NCBI RefSeq assembly: GCF_034372165.1
Contig: NZ_CP139698.1
Coordinates: 806,001-870,000, forward strand
Direction of reading: 5' to 3'
From: Christiangramia sp. OXR-203
Lineage (GTDB): Bacteria; Bacteroidota; Bacteroidia; Flavobacteriales; Flavobacteriaceae
Length of the DNA: 64,000 bases
The notes beneath the pieces were generated by a model. The model had not been told where the DNA came from. It saw only the letters and a list, made by a program, of their open reading frames with translations, and did no database searches. The translations under genes and the position numbers were made by a program. Below, piece after piece: positions 40,128 to 46,625 of the stretch (the stretch's first letter is position 1; every line of letters begins with the position of its first letter).

Positions 40128-40146
40128 ATTTAAAATTAATCTAAAT
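40128..40146. promoter_or_regulatory. Palindrome-like site 1 upstream of the DUF4856-imelysin operon
   Basis: ATTTAAAATTAATCTAAAT: imperfect palindrome with TTTAAA and TCTAAA half-sites 5 nt apart. It ends 5 nt before the -33 TTG, where a repressor or activator could act. A second copy is at 40198. Confidence 0.45.
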
Positions 40147-40181: not shown

Positions 40182-40197
40182 CGCTGGAATTAGTTAT

Positions 40198-40213
40198 TTT
40201 AAACCAGTCTAAA
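40198..40213. promoter_or_regulatory. Palindrome-like site 2 in the leader of the same operon
   Basis: TTTAAACCAGTCTAAA: same TTTAAA/TCTAAA half-sites with a 4-nt centre, in 12 of 16 positions self-complementary. It lies between the promoter and the ATG. Together with site 1 it brackets the promoter, as operators of metal-responsive repressors often do; the regulator is not identified. Confidence 0.45.
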
Positions 40214-40222
40214 TAAAACTAT

Positions 40223-41434
40223 ATGAAAAAGCTGTTCGTTTCAGCCTTTGTTGCAGCCCTTACTTTAAGCTCATGTTCATCTGATGATGATGCTGATATT
40301 CTAAACGAGAAAAATATTGAAGTTCCGGTTTCTTACGATTTTACGAGAAACGGTGAATCTACTGTAAACTTTGAAGGACAAACTACCAGACTACAAATGT
40401 CTGCTGAACTTCTATCAAACTTTACCGATTTTGACAACGCTTCAGAAGAAATGTTGCTGAATATGTTCGCGAATGAAAATTCACCTTTCGATAATGAAGA
40501 TCTTAATGCTTCCAGTAAAAGTATCAAATCCAAAGTAGCAGCTTCAAACTTGTATTTTTCTACCAATAATGTAGAAGCCAGTGAGATCAAATCTGATTTT
40601 GAATCCTGGATCACCGAGCAAATGACTACTGTTAAAGCTAATAAAGATATGCTTGCAGAAGCAGGTCAGGCAGGACAGATTGCACAGGGAACGCGTGTAA
40701 GATACGTGAACGGAAAAGGTCTGGAATTGAATCAGGCATTTGCAAAGTCACTTATTGGTGGTCTTCTTGCAGATCAAATTCTTAATAATTACCTATCTCA
40801 GCCAGTTCTTGACGAAGCAGATAATAGGTTGAATAATGATGATGAGCTTCCGGAAGAGGGTAAAAATTACACTACAATGGAGCATAAGTGGGATGAAGCT
40901 TATGGTTACTTATATGGTGATCCATCAATTCCTGCTTCCAATCCAAATTCTATCCTGAATGAAAGCGATGACAGATTATTGTTCAGCTATTTAGGACAGG
41001 TTGATGAAGATGAAGATTTCGCCGGAATAGCTGAAGAAACTTTTGAAGCCTTTAAAACTGGTAGAGCAGCAATCGTTGCAGGGAATTACGTAGTACGTGA
41101 TGAGCAGGTTGCTATTATTCGTGAGAATATTTCCAAAACTATCGCGGTAAGAGCAGTTTACTATCTGCAGGATGGTAAGAACCTTCTTGCAAATGGTGAG
41201 TTTGGAGCAGCATTCCATGCGCTATCTGAAGGTTATGGTTTCCTTTATAGCTTAAGATTCACCAATGATCCTATGACGAATATGCCTTATGTAAGCGTGT
41301 CTGATATCAATAATTTTAAAGATCAATTATTAAGCGGAAATGGTTTCTGGGAAGTAAGTCCTGATACTCTGGACAGTATTTCAGAAAAGATCGCTGCAGA
41401 ATTTGATTTTAGTGTAGCTGAAGCAGCAGAATAA
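40223..41434 (+). CDS. DUF4856 lipoprotein, first gene of a putative metal-uptake operon
   Basis: 403 aa. Lipobox LTLSSC with Cys18, then SSDDD. The start of the domain reads IEVPVSYDFTRNGESTVNFEGQTTRLQMSAELL, which I recognise as DUF4856, a Bacteroidetes family with no known biochemistry. The rest is mostly helical and acidic (EEMLLNMFANENSPFDNEDL, GQVDEDEDFAGIAEETFEAF), reminiscent of imelysin-like folds. Followed by an intra-operon hairpin (41441-41461) and the imelysin-like gene 43 nt downstream. Acidic surface and operon context suggest binding of a metal or metal complex; this is inference. Confidence 0.85.
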   Translation: MKKLFVSAFVAALTLSSCSSDDDADILNEKNIEVPVSYDFTRNGESTVNFEGQTTRLQMSAELLSNFTDFDNASEEMLLNMFANENSPFDNEDLNASSKSIKSKVAASNLYFSTNNVEASEIKSDFESWITEQMTTVKANKDMLAEAGQAGQIAQGTRVRYVNGKGLELNQAFAKSLIGGLLADQILNNYLSQPVLDEADNRLNNDDELPEEGKNYTTMEHKWDEAYGYLYGDPSIPASNPNSILNESDDRLLFSYLGQVDEDEDFAGIAEETFEAFKTGRAAIVAGNYVVRDEQVAIIRENISKTIAVRAVYYLQDGKNLLANGEFGAAFHALSEGYGFLYSLRFTNDPMTNMPYVSVSDINNFKDQLLSGNGFWEVSPDTLDSISEKIAAEFDFSVAEAAE

Positions 41435-41477: not shown

Positions 41478-42596
41478 ATGATTAAATTTTCAAGACTATT
41501 CATTGTATTTGCACTGATCTTCGCTGCTTGTTCTTCTGAAGATGACGGCACAGAGACAGGTGGGGAAACTGGAGGAACAGATTCTTTTGATCGTGGCGCA
41601 ATGCTTGTAAACTGGGCAGATAATATCATTGTCCCTGCTTACAATAACATGGCTGCTAAGACGCAGAATGTGGAAACGGCAGCTACTGCTTTTACCACAG
41701 CTCCAGATGCTGCAGGTTTGCAGCAACTTCGTGAGGCTTATGTAGATGCATACAAGAGCTTCCAGTCGGTTTCTATGTTCCAGGTTGGAAAGGCAGAGGA
41801 AATTAACTATCGTAGTTATCTAAATACATATCCGGCAAATACCTCGAATATCGATTCTAAAATAAGTTCAGGTTCTTTCAATCTGGAATTACCTTCCAGT
41901 TTTGCAGAACAGGGACTGCCAGCTTTGGATTACCTTTTATTCGGTATGGGAACTTCGGAAGAAATCGTTGCTATATATAGCTCAAACGAGAACTACCGTA
42001 CCTATTTAAATGCTGTAGCCTCAAGAATGAATGCTCTTACTACTGAGGTTTCAAATTCATGGAATGGAGACTACAGAGATACTTTTGTAAGCAATACTTC
42101 TTCATCAAGCACAGGATCTGTTGATAAATTTACGAATGACTATGTAATGTACTTCGAGAAGATTCTTAGATCTGGAAAGATAGGATTTCCGGCAGGTGCA
42201 TTTACAGGGACTGCGTCTCCTTCTAATGTAGAAGCGCGTTTCAATGCTGAGATTTCAAGAGAACTTTATCTGGAAGCGGTACAAAGCTTTGAAGACTTTT
42301 TCTACGGAAGACATTTTTCAGGAAATGGAACTGGAAGCAGCTACAAACAGTATCTTGAGTATCTGGATAGTATGAAAGACGGAGCAGATCTGGCTAGTTT
42401 AATTGAGGATCAATTAGATGCCATCCAATCTCAAAGTTCATCTCTGGAAACGAATCTGAAATCACAGGTAGAAAAAGATAACACTAAAATGCTGGAAGCT
42501 TATGACGAATTGCAGAAGGCTGTGATTCTACTAAAAGTTGATATGATGCAGGCATTATCGATTAGTGTGGATTATGTAGATTCAGATGGGGATTAA
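41478..42596 (+). CDS. Imelysin-family lipoprotein with altered GxHxxE motif
   Basis: 372 aa. Lipobox IFAAC with Cys18. Imelysin/peptidase M75 two-bundle helical fold: MLVNWADNIIVPAYNNM near the start, LREAYVDAYKSFQSVSMFQVGKAEE, and a second half with YFEKILRSGKIGFPAGAF and DFFYGRHF. At the place of the family's GxHxxE motif the sequence reads G146-L-P-A-L-D151 (GLPALDYLLFG): His is Pro and Glu is Asp. It is therefore unlikely to be a metallopeptidase; imelysin-like proteins are often iron-regulated periplasmic or surface proteins of iron transport. Seven nt separate it from the next gene. Confidence 0.9.
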   Translation: MIKFSRLFIVFALIFAACSSEDDGTETGGETGGTDSFDRGAMLVNWADNIIVPAYNNMAAKTQNVETAATAFTTAPDAAGLQQLREAYVDAYKSFQSVSMFQVGKAEEINYRSYLNTYPANTSNIDSKISSGSFNLELPSSFAEQGLPALDYLLFGMGTSEEIVAIYSSNENYRTYLNAVASRMNALTTEVSNSWNGDYRDTFVSNTSSSSTGSVDKFTNDYVMYFEKILRSGKIGFPAGAFTGTASPSNVEARFNAEISRELYLEAVQSFEDFFYGRHFSGNGTGSSYKQYLEYLDSMKDGADLASLIEDQLDAIQSQSSSLETNLKSQVEKDNTKMLEAYDELQKAVILLKVDMMQALSISVDYVDSDGD

Positions 42597-42603
42597 TATC
42601 TGA

Positions 42604-43968
42604 ATGCTGTTTTCTGCAAATAAATATCTAAAAAAGTATACGGAAGCTGCCCCTTTGGCGGCTTTTCGTTTATTTTTTGGTTTGATGATGTTTGCCAGTA
42701 TCGTGCGTTTCTGGGCCAACGGCTGGATCGAGAAACTTTATATTGCCCCAAAATTTTTCTTCTCTTATTATGGATTTGAATGGGTACAGCCAATAGGTGA
42801 GTATACCTATCTAATATTTATCATCTGTGGGCTTTCTGCCCTGGCTGTCGCAGCAGGTTTCAAATACCGACTATCTATCATCGTGTTTTTCCTGAGTTTC
42901 ACTTATATCGAGCTCATGGATAAGACAACGTATTTGAACCACTATTATTTTATTAGTATCCTGAGCTTTTTGATGATCTTTCTTCCCGCGAATGTCTATT
43001 TTTCTATAGATGCCTGGAGAGATAAAAAGAAATCCTTTCAAAAAGTACCGGCCTGGTGCGTGGATTCTTTAAAACTGCTTCTAGCGATCGTATATTTCTA
43101 TGCGGGACTGGCAAAACTAAATTCAGATTGGTTGTTGAGAGCCATGCCTTTGAAAATCTGGCTACCCTCCAAATATGATCTGCCGTGGCTGGGCGACATC
43201 ATGCAGCAGGAATGGTTGCATTACGCCTTTAGCTGGAGCGGGATGTTATACGATCTTTTCATACCATTTCTATTACTGTGGCGTCGCACAAGATTTGTAG
43301 CTTTTATCATGGTGATCATTTTTCATGTACTCACCCGTGTACTTTTTCCTATCGGAATGTTCCCTTACATCATGATCGTAAGCGCCTTGATATTTTTTAG
43401 TCCGAAGCTGCACCACAGGATCCTGAAGTTTATTGCTGAAATATTTAAGATCGATAAATCAAAATTCGATACTTCTGAAGTATACCAATTTCCTGATATT
43501 ACTGGTAAGATCGTGAGAACTGTCGTAGTGATATTCTTTACAGTTCAGCTTTTACTACCATGGAGATATTTAGCATACCCGGGAGAATTATTCTGGACTG
43601 AAGAAGGTTTTAGATTCAGCTGGCGGGTGATGCTTATGGAAAAAGCTGGTTACGCTCAGTTTAAGATAGTAGATGCTGAAACCGGAAATCGTTTTTACGT
43701 TAATAATTCAGATTTTCTGACTCCTTTCCAGGAAAAACAGATGTCCTTCCAACCAGATTTTATTTTGCAATACGCGAAATTTCTTGAAGATCATTTCAGC
43801 AAAGATGGTCATAAGAATATAGAGATTTACGTAGAGAACTACGTGGCGCTTAACGGCAGAAAGAGTGCGCCTTACATCGATCCTGATGTAAATTTGCTTA
43901 ATTTTGCCGACTCGTTTGAACACAAAGAATTCATATTACCATTCCAGGATGAAATTAAAGGTCTTTAG
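42604..43968 (+). CDS. Bacterial homologue of vitamin K-dependent gamma-carboxylase (HTTM family, full-length type)
   Basis: 454 aa. Residues ~13-320 are the HTTM membrane domain with about seven to eight helices (APLAAFRLFFGLMMF, YRLSIIVFFLSF, VYFYAGLAKLNSDW, FHVLTRVLFPIGMFPYIM). From memory of human GGCX, colinear blocks are conserved: DKTxxxNH (here D106-K107-T108 and His113, the human His160 region), AGxxKLxxDW (Lys171 aligns with the catalytic base Lys218), FHx5LFxIGMFxYxM (His241). The 130-residue soluble end (SWRVMLMEKAGYAQFKI…QYAKFLEDHF…IDPDVNLL) also aligns with the human lumenal region, whereas the human C-terminal third is absent. Human enzyme oxidises reduced vitamin K and carboxylates Glu. 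The substrate here is unknown. Confidence 0.85.
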   Translation: MLFSANKYLKKYTEAAPLAAFRLFFGLMMFASIVRFWANGWIEKLYIAPKFFFSYYGFEWVQPIGEYTYLIFIICGLSALAVAAGFKYRLSIIVFFLSFTYIELMDKTTYLNHYYFISILSFLMIFLPANVYFSIDAWRDKKKSFQKVPAWCVDSLKLLLAIVYFYAGLAKLNSDWLLRAMPLKIWLPSKYDLPWLGDIMQQEWLHYAFSWSGMLYDLFIPFLLLWRRTRFVAFIMVIIFHVLTRVLFPIGMFPYIMIVSALIFFSPKLHHRILKFIAEIFKIDKSKFDTSEVYQFPDITGKIVRTVVVIFFTVQLLLPWRYLAYPGELFWTEEGFRFSWRVMLMEKAGYAQFKIVDAETGNRFYVNNSDFLTPFQEKQMSFQPDFILQYAKFLEDHFSKDGHKNIEIYVENYVALNGRKSAPYIDPDVNLLNFADSFEHKEFILPFQDEIKGL

Positions 43969-46381
43969 TATCATATTCTTGTTTACTTCACTGGCTCAGG
44001 CTCAGTTCACGGTTAGTGGAACGGTTACTTCAGTTGAAGACGGTTCTGCTATTGCTAATGCTGAAGTATGGAACAAAACAGTTTCAGAAATGGTACTTAC
44101 CAATGAAGATGGGATTTTCAGAATAGAGAATCTTCAGGAGGGTAATTACGAATTTGCAGTTTTCAGTTTTGAATATGCGATCGCAGATAAAGAGATCTTT
44201 ATAAATGCTGATACCCAAGTGAATTTTGAGCTTGCAAAACTTTCCAATAACCTTAGTGAAGTAATGATCACTAATCGCAGGGAAGAGGTATTCGCGCTAA
44301 GAAAACTACGTAAGGTAGAAGGAACTGCAATTTATGCAGGTAAGAAAAGTGAGGTGGTTCTGCTTGATAAAACAGTAGGAAACCTGGCGGCTAATAATGC
44401 CAGACAGATCTACAATCAGGTGGTAGGACTCAATATCTATGATAATGGCGATGCTGGATTGCAATTAAATATTGGAGGTCGCGGGCTTGATCCTAACCGA
44501 ACCCAGAATTTTAATACCAGGCAAAACGGTTACGATATTTCAGCAGATGTTTTGGGATATCCTGAAAGCTACTACACACCTCCTGCAGAAGCTCTTAAAG
44601 AGATTCAGGTGGTTCGTGGAGCCGCATCCTTGCAATACGGGACACAGTTTGGCGGGATGATCAACTTCAAATTCAAAGAACCGGTAAAGGATAAAAAGAT
44701 AGAGCTTATTTCCAGGCAGAGTGTAGGCTCGTATGATCTTTTTACCAGTTTCAACAGCCTTAGTGGAACTGTAGGTAAATTGAGTTATTACACTTATTTT
44801 CATTATAAAGGCGGGGAAGGTTTTCGGCCAAATTCTGGTTACGATTCCAGGAATGTATTCGCTCATCTTGGTTACCAGTTAAGTGATCGCACCAATATTA
44901 GTTTTGAGTATACGTACCTGGATTACCTTGCACAACAACCGGGAGGGCTTTCAGATTTTCAATTCTATGAAGATCCGGATTTTAGCAATCGGGAAAGAAA
45001 CTGGTTCGATGTTAACTGGAATCTTTATGCCTTCAAACTACAACACAAACTTACAGACAGAACAGATGTTAGCGTTAATTTCTTCGGGCTGGATGCGACA
45101 AGAAAAGCGCTTGGATTTAGAGTAGATAGAGTTTCCCAGGTAGATGATCTGGATGCACCAAGAGAATTGCTGGTAGACAATTTTTCAAATTGGGGAATCG
45201 AAACGAGGTTTTTAACAAGGTACGACCTGCTTAATGATCAGTCGGTTTTCCTAATTGGAGCAAAGTATTATGATGCCAATAATGACCAAAGACAAGGACC
45301 TGGCAGTAATACGACCGGTCCCGATTTCTCCTTTGCAGATGCAACATATCCAGATTACGCGAGACAGGCTGAGTTTAACTTCCCAAATAAGAACCTTGCA
45401 ATTTTTGGAGAGAACATTTTTAATATTTCTGAAAGATTATCGGTTACTCCCGGCTTTAGATTTGAATATATAAACACTGCTTCTGAAGGGTCTTACAAAA
45501 ATATTATTTTGGATCTGGCAGGAAATCCACTTCAGAATGAAACTGTAGAAGATAGTCGTGATTTCGAGCGTTCTTTCGTCTTACTTGGTGTTGGATCCAG
45601 TTATTCCCTGAATCCTAAGAACGAACTCTACGCAAATATCTCCCAGAATTACAGGTCTGTTACCTTTAATGATATTAGAGTTGTGAATCCCAATCTTGTC
45701 ATAGATCCTGAAATTACCGATGAAGAAGGTTTCACTGCAGATGTTGGTGTGCGTGGAAGACTTGCCGATAAGGTTTCTTATGATGTAAGCGTTTTTGGAT
45801 TAAGGTATAATGACAGGATAGGGGTTGTGGACGTGGCTACAGCTACAGATTATTACCGATATAAATCCAATATTGGTGATGCCTTTATATACGGTTTGGA
45901 AACATTCGCTGACTGGGATCTGAAGAATACTTTTTTTGAAGCTTCTGAAGATCATAAGCTCAACTATTTTGTGAATGCTGCCTTTACGAGTTCTGAATAT
46001 GTGGATTCTAATGAGATCAATGTAGAAGGAAATGAGGTTGAATTTATTCCAAAGGTAAACCTGAAAACCGGTCTTAACTTTGGTTATAAAAACTTTCTCG
46101 CAGGTCTTCAATATACCTATTTATCTGAACAGTTCTCAGACGCTACGAATGCTCCTCAGGATGTAGATGATAGGATCAATGGAATTCGAGGTTCCATTCC
46201 ATCTTATGGAATTATGGATGTATCTGCTAGCTATACCCTTGGCAAATTTAAGCTGGAAGCAGGGATCAATAATCTGTTGGATAATAGTTACTTTACACGT
46301 AGGGCCACAGGATATCCCGGGCCTGGGATCATTCCCGCACAGCCGCTTACCTGGTATTCAAGTCTGCAGATAAAATTATAG
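43949..46381 (+). CDS. FecA-like TonB-dependent receptor, last gene of the operon
   Basis: 810 aa from ATG 43949 (signal peptide MKLKVFSIIFLFTSLAQAQ). The frame extends upstream to 43904, but those codons precede the signal peptide and are rejected. The start overlaps the end of the carboxylase-like gene by 20 nt, a sign of translational coupling. Domains: carboxypeptidase-like regulatory domain (~20-105), plug (~130-245, NARQIYNQVVGLNIYDNGDAGLQLNIGGRG, IQVVRGAASLQYGTQFGGMINF), and a barrel whose nearest named relatives are ferric-citrate receptors of FecA type. Transports a metal complex or other large ligand across the outer membrane. Confidence 0.93.
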   Translation: MKLKVFSIIFLFTSLAQAQFTVSGTVTSVEDGSAIANAEVWNKTVSEMVLTNEDGIFRIENLQEGNYEFAVFSFEYAIADKEIFINADTQVNFELAKLSNNLSEVMITNRREEVFALRKLRKVEGTAIYAGKKSEVVLLDKTVGNLAANNARQIYNQVVGLNIYDNGDAGLQLNIGGRGLDPNRTQNFNTRQNGYDISADVLGYPESYYTPPAEALKEIQVVRGAASLQYGTQFGGMINFKFKEPVKDKKIELISRQSVGSYDLFTSFNSLSGTVGKLSYYTYFHYKGGEGFRPNSGYDSRNVFAHLGYQLSDRTNISFEYTYLDYLAQQPGGLSDFQFYEDPDFSNRERNWFDVNWNLYAFKLQHKLTDRTDVSVNFFGLDATRKALGFRVDRVSQVDDLDAPRELLVDNFSNWGIETRFLTRYDLLNDQSVFLIGAKYYDANNDQRQGPGSNTTGPDFSFADATYPDYARQAEFNFPNKNLAIFGENIFNISERLSVTPGFRFEYINTASEGSYKNIILDLAGNPLQNETVEDSRDFERSFVLLGVGSSYSLNPKNELYANISQNYRSVTFNDIRVVNPNLVIDPEITDEEGFTADVGVRGRLADKVSYDVSVFGLRYNDRIGVVDVATATDYYRYKSNIGDAFIYGLETFADWDLKNTFFEASEDHKLNYFVNAAFTSSEYVDSNEINVEGNEVEFIPKVNLKTGLNFGYKNFLAGLQYTYLSEQFSDATNAPQDVDDRINGIRGSIPSYGIMDVSASYTLGKFKLEAGINNLLDNSYFTRRATGYPGPGIIPAQPLTWYSSLQIKL

Positions 46382-46382
46382 A

Positions 46383-46625
46383 TCACGCAGTAGCTTGCGG
46401 TGCCCAGTGACTGCATAACATTCCTGGTGCTGCTTTTTGGGGATTCGCACAGGTTGGACTTTCATATCTGGCACAATTAAGGCAGTTCTTCTCATTTTTG
46501 ATAGCCGCTTTCATTTCAAAACTGTCGCATGTATGCTGAACGTTTACCGCGGTTTCATGTTTAGTGCAAAAGTTATTCTGAAAATTGTCGCAATTAGTGC
46601 AGCTGTTTCCTAGTCTAATACTCAT
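46383..46625 (-). CDS. Small protein with two tandem four-cysteine modules
   Basis: 80 aa, not recognised. Cysteines occur in two similar units: C9-x2-C12-x7-C20-x12-C33 and C48-x2-C51-x7-C59-x11-C71. Each unit also shares CxNC, then F/Y two residues on, and an aromatic near the end (CDSF, CSHW). This looks like an internal duplication of a metal-binding (zinc or iron) or disulfide-linked knuckle. No signal peptide, so metal binding in the cytoplasm is more likely than disulfides. Convergent with the TonB receptor; stops are 1 nt apart. Confidence 0.78.
   Translation of the reverse strand: MSIRLGNSCTNCDNFQNNFCTKHETAVNVQHTCDSFEMKAAIKNEKNCLNCARYESPTCANPQKAAPGMLCSHWAPQATA

Follow-up and report, generated by a model that had tools for sequence, protein, structure and literature searches.

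The third gene of a four-gene operon in the window (the whole stretch of DNA analyzed here, 64,000 nucleotides) encodes a protein that belongs to the VKGC/HTTM superfamily over its full 454 residues. The window comes from a marine flavobacterium, placed in Christiangramia on the basis of 94% identity to C. portivictoriae. We read it as an inner-membrane, menaquinol-using VKGC-family enzyme that may be dedicated to an IPPA-type imelysin within an iron-uptake unit under Fur control, an interpretation we regard as evenly poised. The quinone chemistry of the protein is likely like that of human GGCX. Features of the operon and of the region preceding it are collected in Table 1.

Table 1. Operon genes and candidate Fur boxes, in window coordinates.
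Feature	Coordinates	Strand	Remarks
Fur box ATTTAAAATTAATCTAAAT	40128..40146	+	17/19 match; 76 bp before first operon start codon
Possible second, weaker Fur box ATTTTAAACCAGTCTAAAT	40196..40214	+	14/19 match
DUF4856 lipoprotein, first operon gene, weakly FEA1-related	40223..41434	+	PF16148, 453 bits
Imelysin-like lipoprotein, IPPA/PA4372 type, ends DSDGD-COOH	41478..42596	+	PF09375, 119 bits
VKGC/HTTM enzyme, GGCX homologue	42604..43968	+	ATG start, 454 aa; K171 = human K218, H113 = H160
FecA-like TonB-dependent outer-membrane receptor	43952..46381	+	PF00593/PF07715; likely ATG overlaps VKGC stop

Fold and active site of the VKGC protein

The original prediction held that this protein is a full-length VKGC homologue that keeps the soluble region following the membrane helices, and both statements are borne out. 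PF05090 (HTTM) matched residues 13-267 with 275 bits and PF22777 (VKGC_lumenal_dom) matched residues 302-450, after the helices, with 204 bits, the cut-off being 27.7 for each. Among solved structures, only human GGCX chains were matched by phmmer (E 3.9e-42), with residues 9-447 aligned on human 55-505 and identity at 124/432 aligned residues. A Foldseek search with an AlphaFold model of the protein (mean pLDDT 94.6, pTM 0.92) had GGCX entries as its top 16 hits and nothing else below E 0.001. VIA-align superposed model residues 1-450 on GGCX 41-508 (Z 33.0, 439 residues, rmsd 3.0 A), and all non-GGCX rows fell below Z 5. The prediction had staked itself on this fold and on Lys171 and His113 matching GGCX Lys218 and His160; the model has the GGCX fold, and the two residues correspond to their human counterparts in the sequence alignment, as distinct from a structure superposition. 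As also anticipated, the animal C-terminal part is absent: the VKGC protein stops at the equivalent of human residue 508 and has no counterpart to human GGCX 509-758, a region that comprises the arch and the remainder of the propeptide clamp.

The translated reading frame contains DKTTYLNH (D106..H113), YAGLAKLNSDW (K171, W176) and FHVLTRVLFPIGMFPYIM at F240..M257, so that the predicted motifs DKTxxxNH, AGxxKLxxDW and FHx5LFxIGMFxYxM are each found in place. Active-site roles follow published cryo-EM work on human GGCX (PMC12589487). Most of the quinone head-group pocket is kept, with F240, F248, F253, V163 and W176 identical to human F286, F294, F299, V210 and W223 and with V342 in place of M401; also identical to human GGCX are N159 (N112 here), A214, G259, M402, D222, R476 and Y425. 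Conservation extends to other bacteria, as K171, W176 and F253 are present in 67/67 homologues and H113 and F240 in 66/67. The substrate side differs. Human K217, N158 and R436 are replaced by A170, L111 and Q379, respectively, the alignment being uncertain around R436, and further replacements in the protein are Y395 to F and H404 to M. Both positions of the human C99-C450 disulfide are Phe. In human GGCX, N158 and R436 grip the backbone of the substrate, and the K217A mutant binds its substrate protein less well although catalysis is unimpaired (PMC12589487). Thus, quinone-side residues are kept while those on the Glu-peptide side are replaced, indicating that conservation covers the chemistry side of the enzyme but not its substrate side.

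We refrain from classing the protein as a gamma-glutamyl carboxylase, since the structural features that define GGCX sensu stricto were looked for and are lacking. These are the Glu-peptide residues N158, R436 and K217 and a two-lobed propeptide-binding domain with arch (to human residue 758); a VKOR in the same genome, a further mark of GGCX sensu stricto, is missing as well. No PF07884 (VKOR) match was obtained in the complete genome of this strain, and three control genomes did match. A reading of the protein as a plain carboxylase is weakened by the changes K217A, N158L and R436Q together with this lack of VKOR. Recycling by VKOR was considered and rejected, as the occurrence of VKOR across the family (6/60 genomes) also does not fit the distribution of VKGC. 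Flavobacteria contain menaquinone-6 (MK-6), proposed originally as the source of reduced quinone, and this part of the prediction is supported by a MenD in the genome (355 bits).

The same genome also encodes a full-length VKGC paralogue at about 3291.5 kb (L003:8532-9851, minus strand), between ribF and serS, which shares 36% identity with the protein of the operon. This stand-alone type adjoined ribF in 9/9 flavobacterial loci checked. Of the two types in this genome, the stand-alone one (275 bits) lies nearer to GGCX by profile score against the human segment than the operon type to which the window protein belongs (240 bits), whereas the order is reversed in a pairwise search against human GGCX (window protein, 148 bits; paralogue, 113 bits).

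An iron-regulated operon with a probable imelysin partner

The operon order is DUF4856, imelysin, VKGC and TonB receptor. Among 80 loci from other genomes, these genes were found in 78, 77, 80 and 77, respectively, and the most conserved of the four was usually VKGC. The FecA and TonB-siderophor models matched the receptor below cut-off, and NCBIfam FEA1_rel_lipo scored 24 bits against the DUF4856 lipoprotein, far below its cut-off. A confident model of the latter (pLDDT 92.4) gave no convincing fold match among PDB structures. Its fold was rejected as a clue to metal binding, since the best hit (Z 7.6, alpha-catenin type, 175 residues) is of a strength that common helical arrangements also give. 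Converging on the receptor gene is a minus-strand gene for a Cys-rich protein of 80 residues (46383-46625), present near the operon in 10/80 relatives.

The operon had been described simply as one for metal uptake; this description is confirmed and can be narrowed to iron. Using the published Riemerella anatipestifer Fur box as the pattern (PMC5609570), the stronger box in Table 1 is the best plus-strand match in the 64-kb window. Of the orthologous operons, 77 had enough sequence upstream for this comparison, and all of them carry a box of 14/19 or better in the 200 bp before the operon; the mean best match was 16.0 upstream of these operons versus 12.5 in shuffled sequence and 10.6 inside genes. 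The R. anatipestifer operon with the same annotated genes is up-regulated on iron restriction by RNA-seq and is listed as Fur-regulated; its iron response persists in a fur mutant (PMC5609570).

The prediction had also tied the enzyme to a co-encoded lipoprotein, and the genomic link to imelysin is strong. In a phylum sample of 247 Bacteroidota genomes, which are related so that events are not independent, the VKGC lumenal domain occurs in 56, imelysin in 57 and both in 49. The seven genomes with VKGC only have the stand-alone type, and the eight with imelysin only have canonical imelysins. Operon-type VKGC is accompanied by imelysin in 49/49 genomes, directly upstream in 47, with a contig end in one and imelysin elsewhere in one.

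The partner imelysin belongs to the IPPA/PA4372 type defined by Xu et al. (PMC3143127), being a PF09375 member in which GLPALD replaces GxHxxE with loss of the His; its profile match to the IPPA structure 3pf0 (7e-29) runs to the last residue. Imelysins of this type end exactly in DGD-COOH (42579-42593 for the tail in the window). The residues D370, G371 and D372 are invariant, among only nine invariant columns in 49 diverse members, and DGD is the ending of every VKGC-adjacent imelysin inspected, with a single exception (DND) among 78 close copies. A DGD-tailed imelysin precedes VKGC in 18/18 family operons checked, and the tail is absent from canonical imelysins. In crystal structure 3pf0, the last six residues are disordered (PMC3143127). 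We considered the tail as a VKGC-specific modification site and rejected this, as DGD is also found in 3pf0 and in Rhizobiaceae imelysins, which end in FADGD. A search of three chromosome-sized Rhizobiaceae records, run without a positive control, gave no VKGC match. Its presence in Rhizobiaceae lacking a detected VKGC means that the tail does not by itself establish where a substrate site lies, and we retain it as a lead only. A Glu specific to VKGC-associated imelysins was also sought as a candidate site, and none was found.

Two observations were made alongside these comparisons. The Rhizobiaceae records (L178, L179 and L181; 3.5 to 4.6 Mb) are classed as plasmids in PLSDB despite their chromosome size. 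In Persicobacter (L176:5189-10302), a canonical imelysin, a DUF1111-like di-heme protein, an IPPA-type imelysin ending in DDNDGD and a VKGC follow one another, joining units of Proteobacteria style and Bacteroidota style in one operon.

Some genomes depart from the standard arrangement. Two Roseivirga genomes have a divided unit, with imelysin and receptor elsewhere in the genome and DUF4856 with them in one, while genome G167 carries VKGC and imelysin without DUF4856; the VKGC active site is intact in G167 and in the detached, imelysin-bearing Roseivirga genes. Genome G014 has neither imelysin nor DUF4856. Its operon-type VKGC (L150:7160-8548), identical to the window protein at 226/453 residues, has an intact frame and sits in the same place between HMG-CoA-lyase-like and IMP dehydrogenase genes. 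This gene has lost 19/58 residues invariant in the other 47 sequences (next worst, 4/62), including N112, H113, G213, F240, H241, M343, E333 and R337; K171 is kept. With its partners gone and its active site eroded, G014 suggests a link between the active site and the partner genes, as a single case of decay in one genome where the catalytic Lys is retained.

Possible functions of the enzyme-imelysin pair

As the dedicated partner of imelysin, the enzyme is envisaged to work as follows. Lys171 would deprotonate menaquinol, and reaction of the deprotonated menaquinol with O2 would give a strong base. The target of this base may be an acidic residue in a partner lipoprotein that faces the periplasm. 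Imelysin is the most likely partner and would be acted on prior to or in the course of export; addition of a carboxylate would tune metal binding. The fullest form of this scheme, in which iron-controlled, O2- and menaquinol-dependent carboxylation of an acidic imelysin residue builds or tunes an iron site, is one we consider doubtful. The product would be Gla if the residue is a Glu, or beta-carboxy-Asp if it is an Asp of the DxDGD tail at the C-terminus.

Because the genome lacks VKOR and the peptide-holding residues are altered, quinol oxidation without carboxylation is a serious rival and, in our estimate, a possible if somewhat unlikely one. The enzyme would be a quinol oxygenase that converts menaquinol to an epoxide or other product, with electrons or oxidizing equivalents serving iron redox beside imelysin; the di-heme DUF1111 protein that adjoins imelysins in other operons may offer a model for such a role. 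In its favor, residues on the quinone side are kept while those on the Glu-peptide side are replaced, and the lack of VKOR fits a product that VKOR does not recycle. Moreover, three operons (L152, L153 and L176) combine IPPA-type imelysin, DUF1111-like and VKGC genes. Set against this are the equivalents of N159 and H160, kept in at least 66/67 homologues. In human GGCX, this pair coordinates the side chain of the substrate Glu, and H160A compromises Glu carboxylation (PMC12589487); epoxidation by the human enzyme requires a Glu substrate (PMC9146348).

A true protein carboxylase could instead act on the DUF4856 lipoprotein or another exported protein rather than on imelysin. DUF4856 is the neighbor in nearly all of the 80 close loci and lies beside VKGC in the Roseivirga loci L052 and L053 while imelysin lies elsewhere. 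This assignment is improbable, however, given that a recognizable DUF4856 occurs in 38 genomes of the phylum sample as compared with 57 for imelysin, that several VKGC-imelysin operons have a weak DUF4856 match or none, and that G167 does without it. Equally improbable is a non-enzymatic inner-membrane component, such as an iron permease or assembly factor reusing the VKGC fold. In its favor, no operon product apart from the VKGC protein is a multi-helix membrane protein, the others being a receptor and lipoproteins. A permease, however, would need neither the invariant Lys nor the nearly invariant quinone pocket, and stand-alone homologues that lie outside any uptake operon retain these residues too.

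For the question of what role bacterial GGCX relatives play, the operon supplies a defined partner set and an inducing condition, low iron. Because partners, low-iron induction, a mutable catalytic Lys and a natural case of decay are all at hand, this question can be tested in a culturable aerobic bacterium. Imelysin in particular is a concrete partner protein on which to probe the function of bacterial relatives of GGCX, the human vitamin K enzyme that activates clotting factors. If protein carboxylation proves true, this chemistry of clotting and bone would also be one of iron uptake in bacteria.

Comparison with known systems

Human GGCX (PDB 9wfc, 9bvk, 9l6q and others) shares with the window protein the fold, both catalytic residues (Lys and His) and the greater part of the quinone pocket. 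The human enzyme differs in its Glu-peptide residues, its C99-C450 disulfide and residues 509-758, which are without equivalent here. Among bacteria, the Leptospira homologue reportedly has epoxidase but not carboxylase activity. This glutamyl carboxylase homologue is likewise a bacterial relative of GGCX, and Leptospira has a VKOR homologue (PMC4555120), whereas the window genome has none.

Our literature search on bacterial HTTM-imelysin pairs returned only the R. anatipestifer transcriptome. In that species, RAYM_09779-09794 place a "Vitamin K-dependent gamma-carboxylase" beside an imelysin lipoprotein and a TonB receptor, a likeness that is one of annotation. Psychrobacter arcticus IPPA (PDB 3pf0) resembles the operon imelysin in having Pro for the GxHxxE His and a C-terminal DGD. 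Imelysin and DUF1111-type genes are the neighbors reported for IPPA, with no carboxylase mentioned (PMC3143127), whereas the operon imelysin adjoins VKGC.
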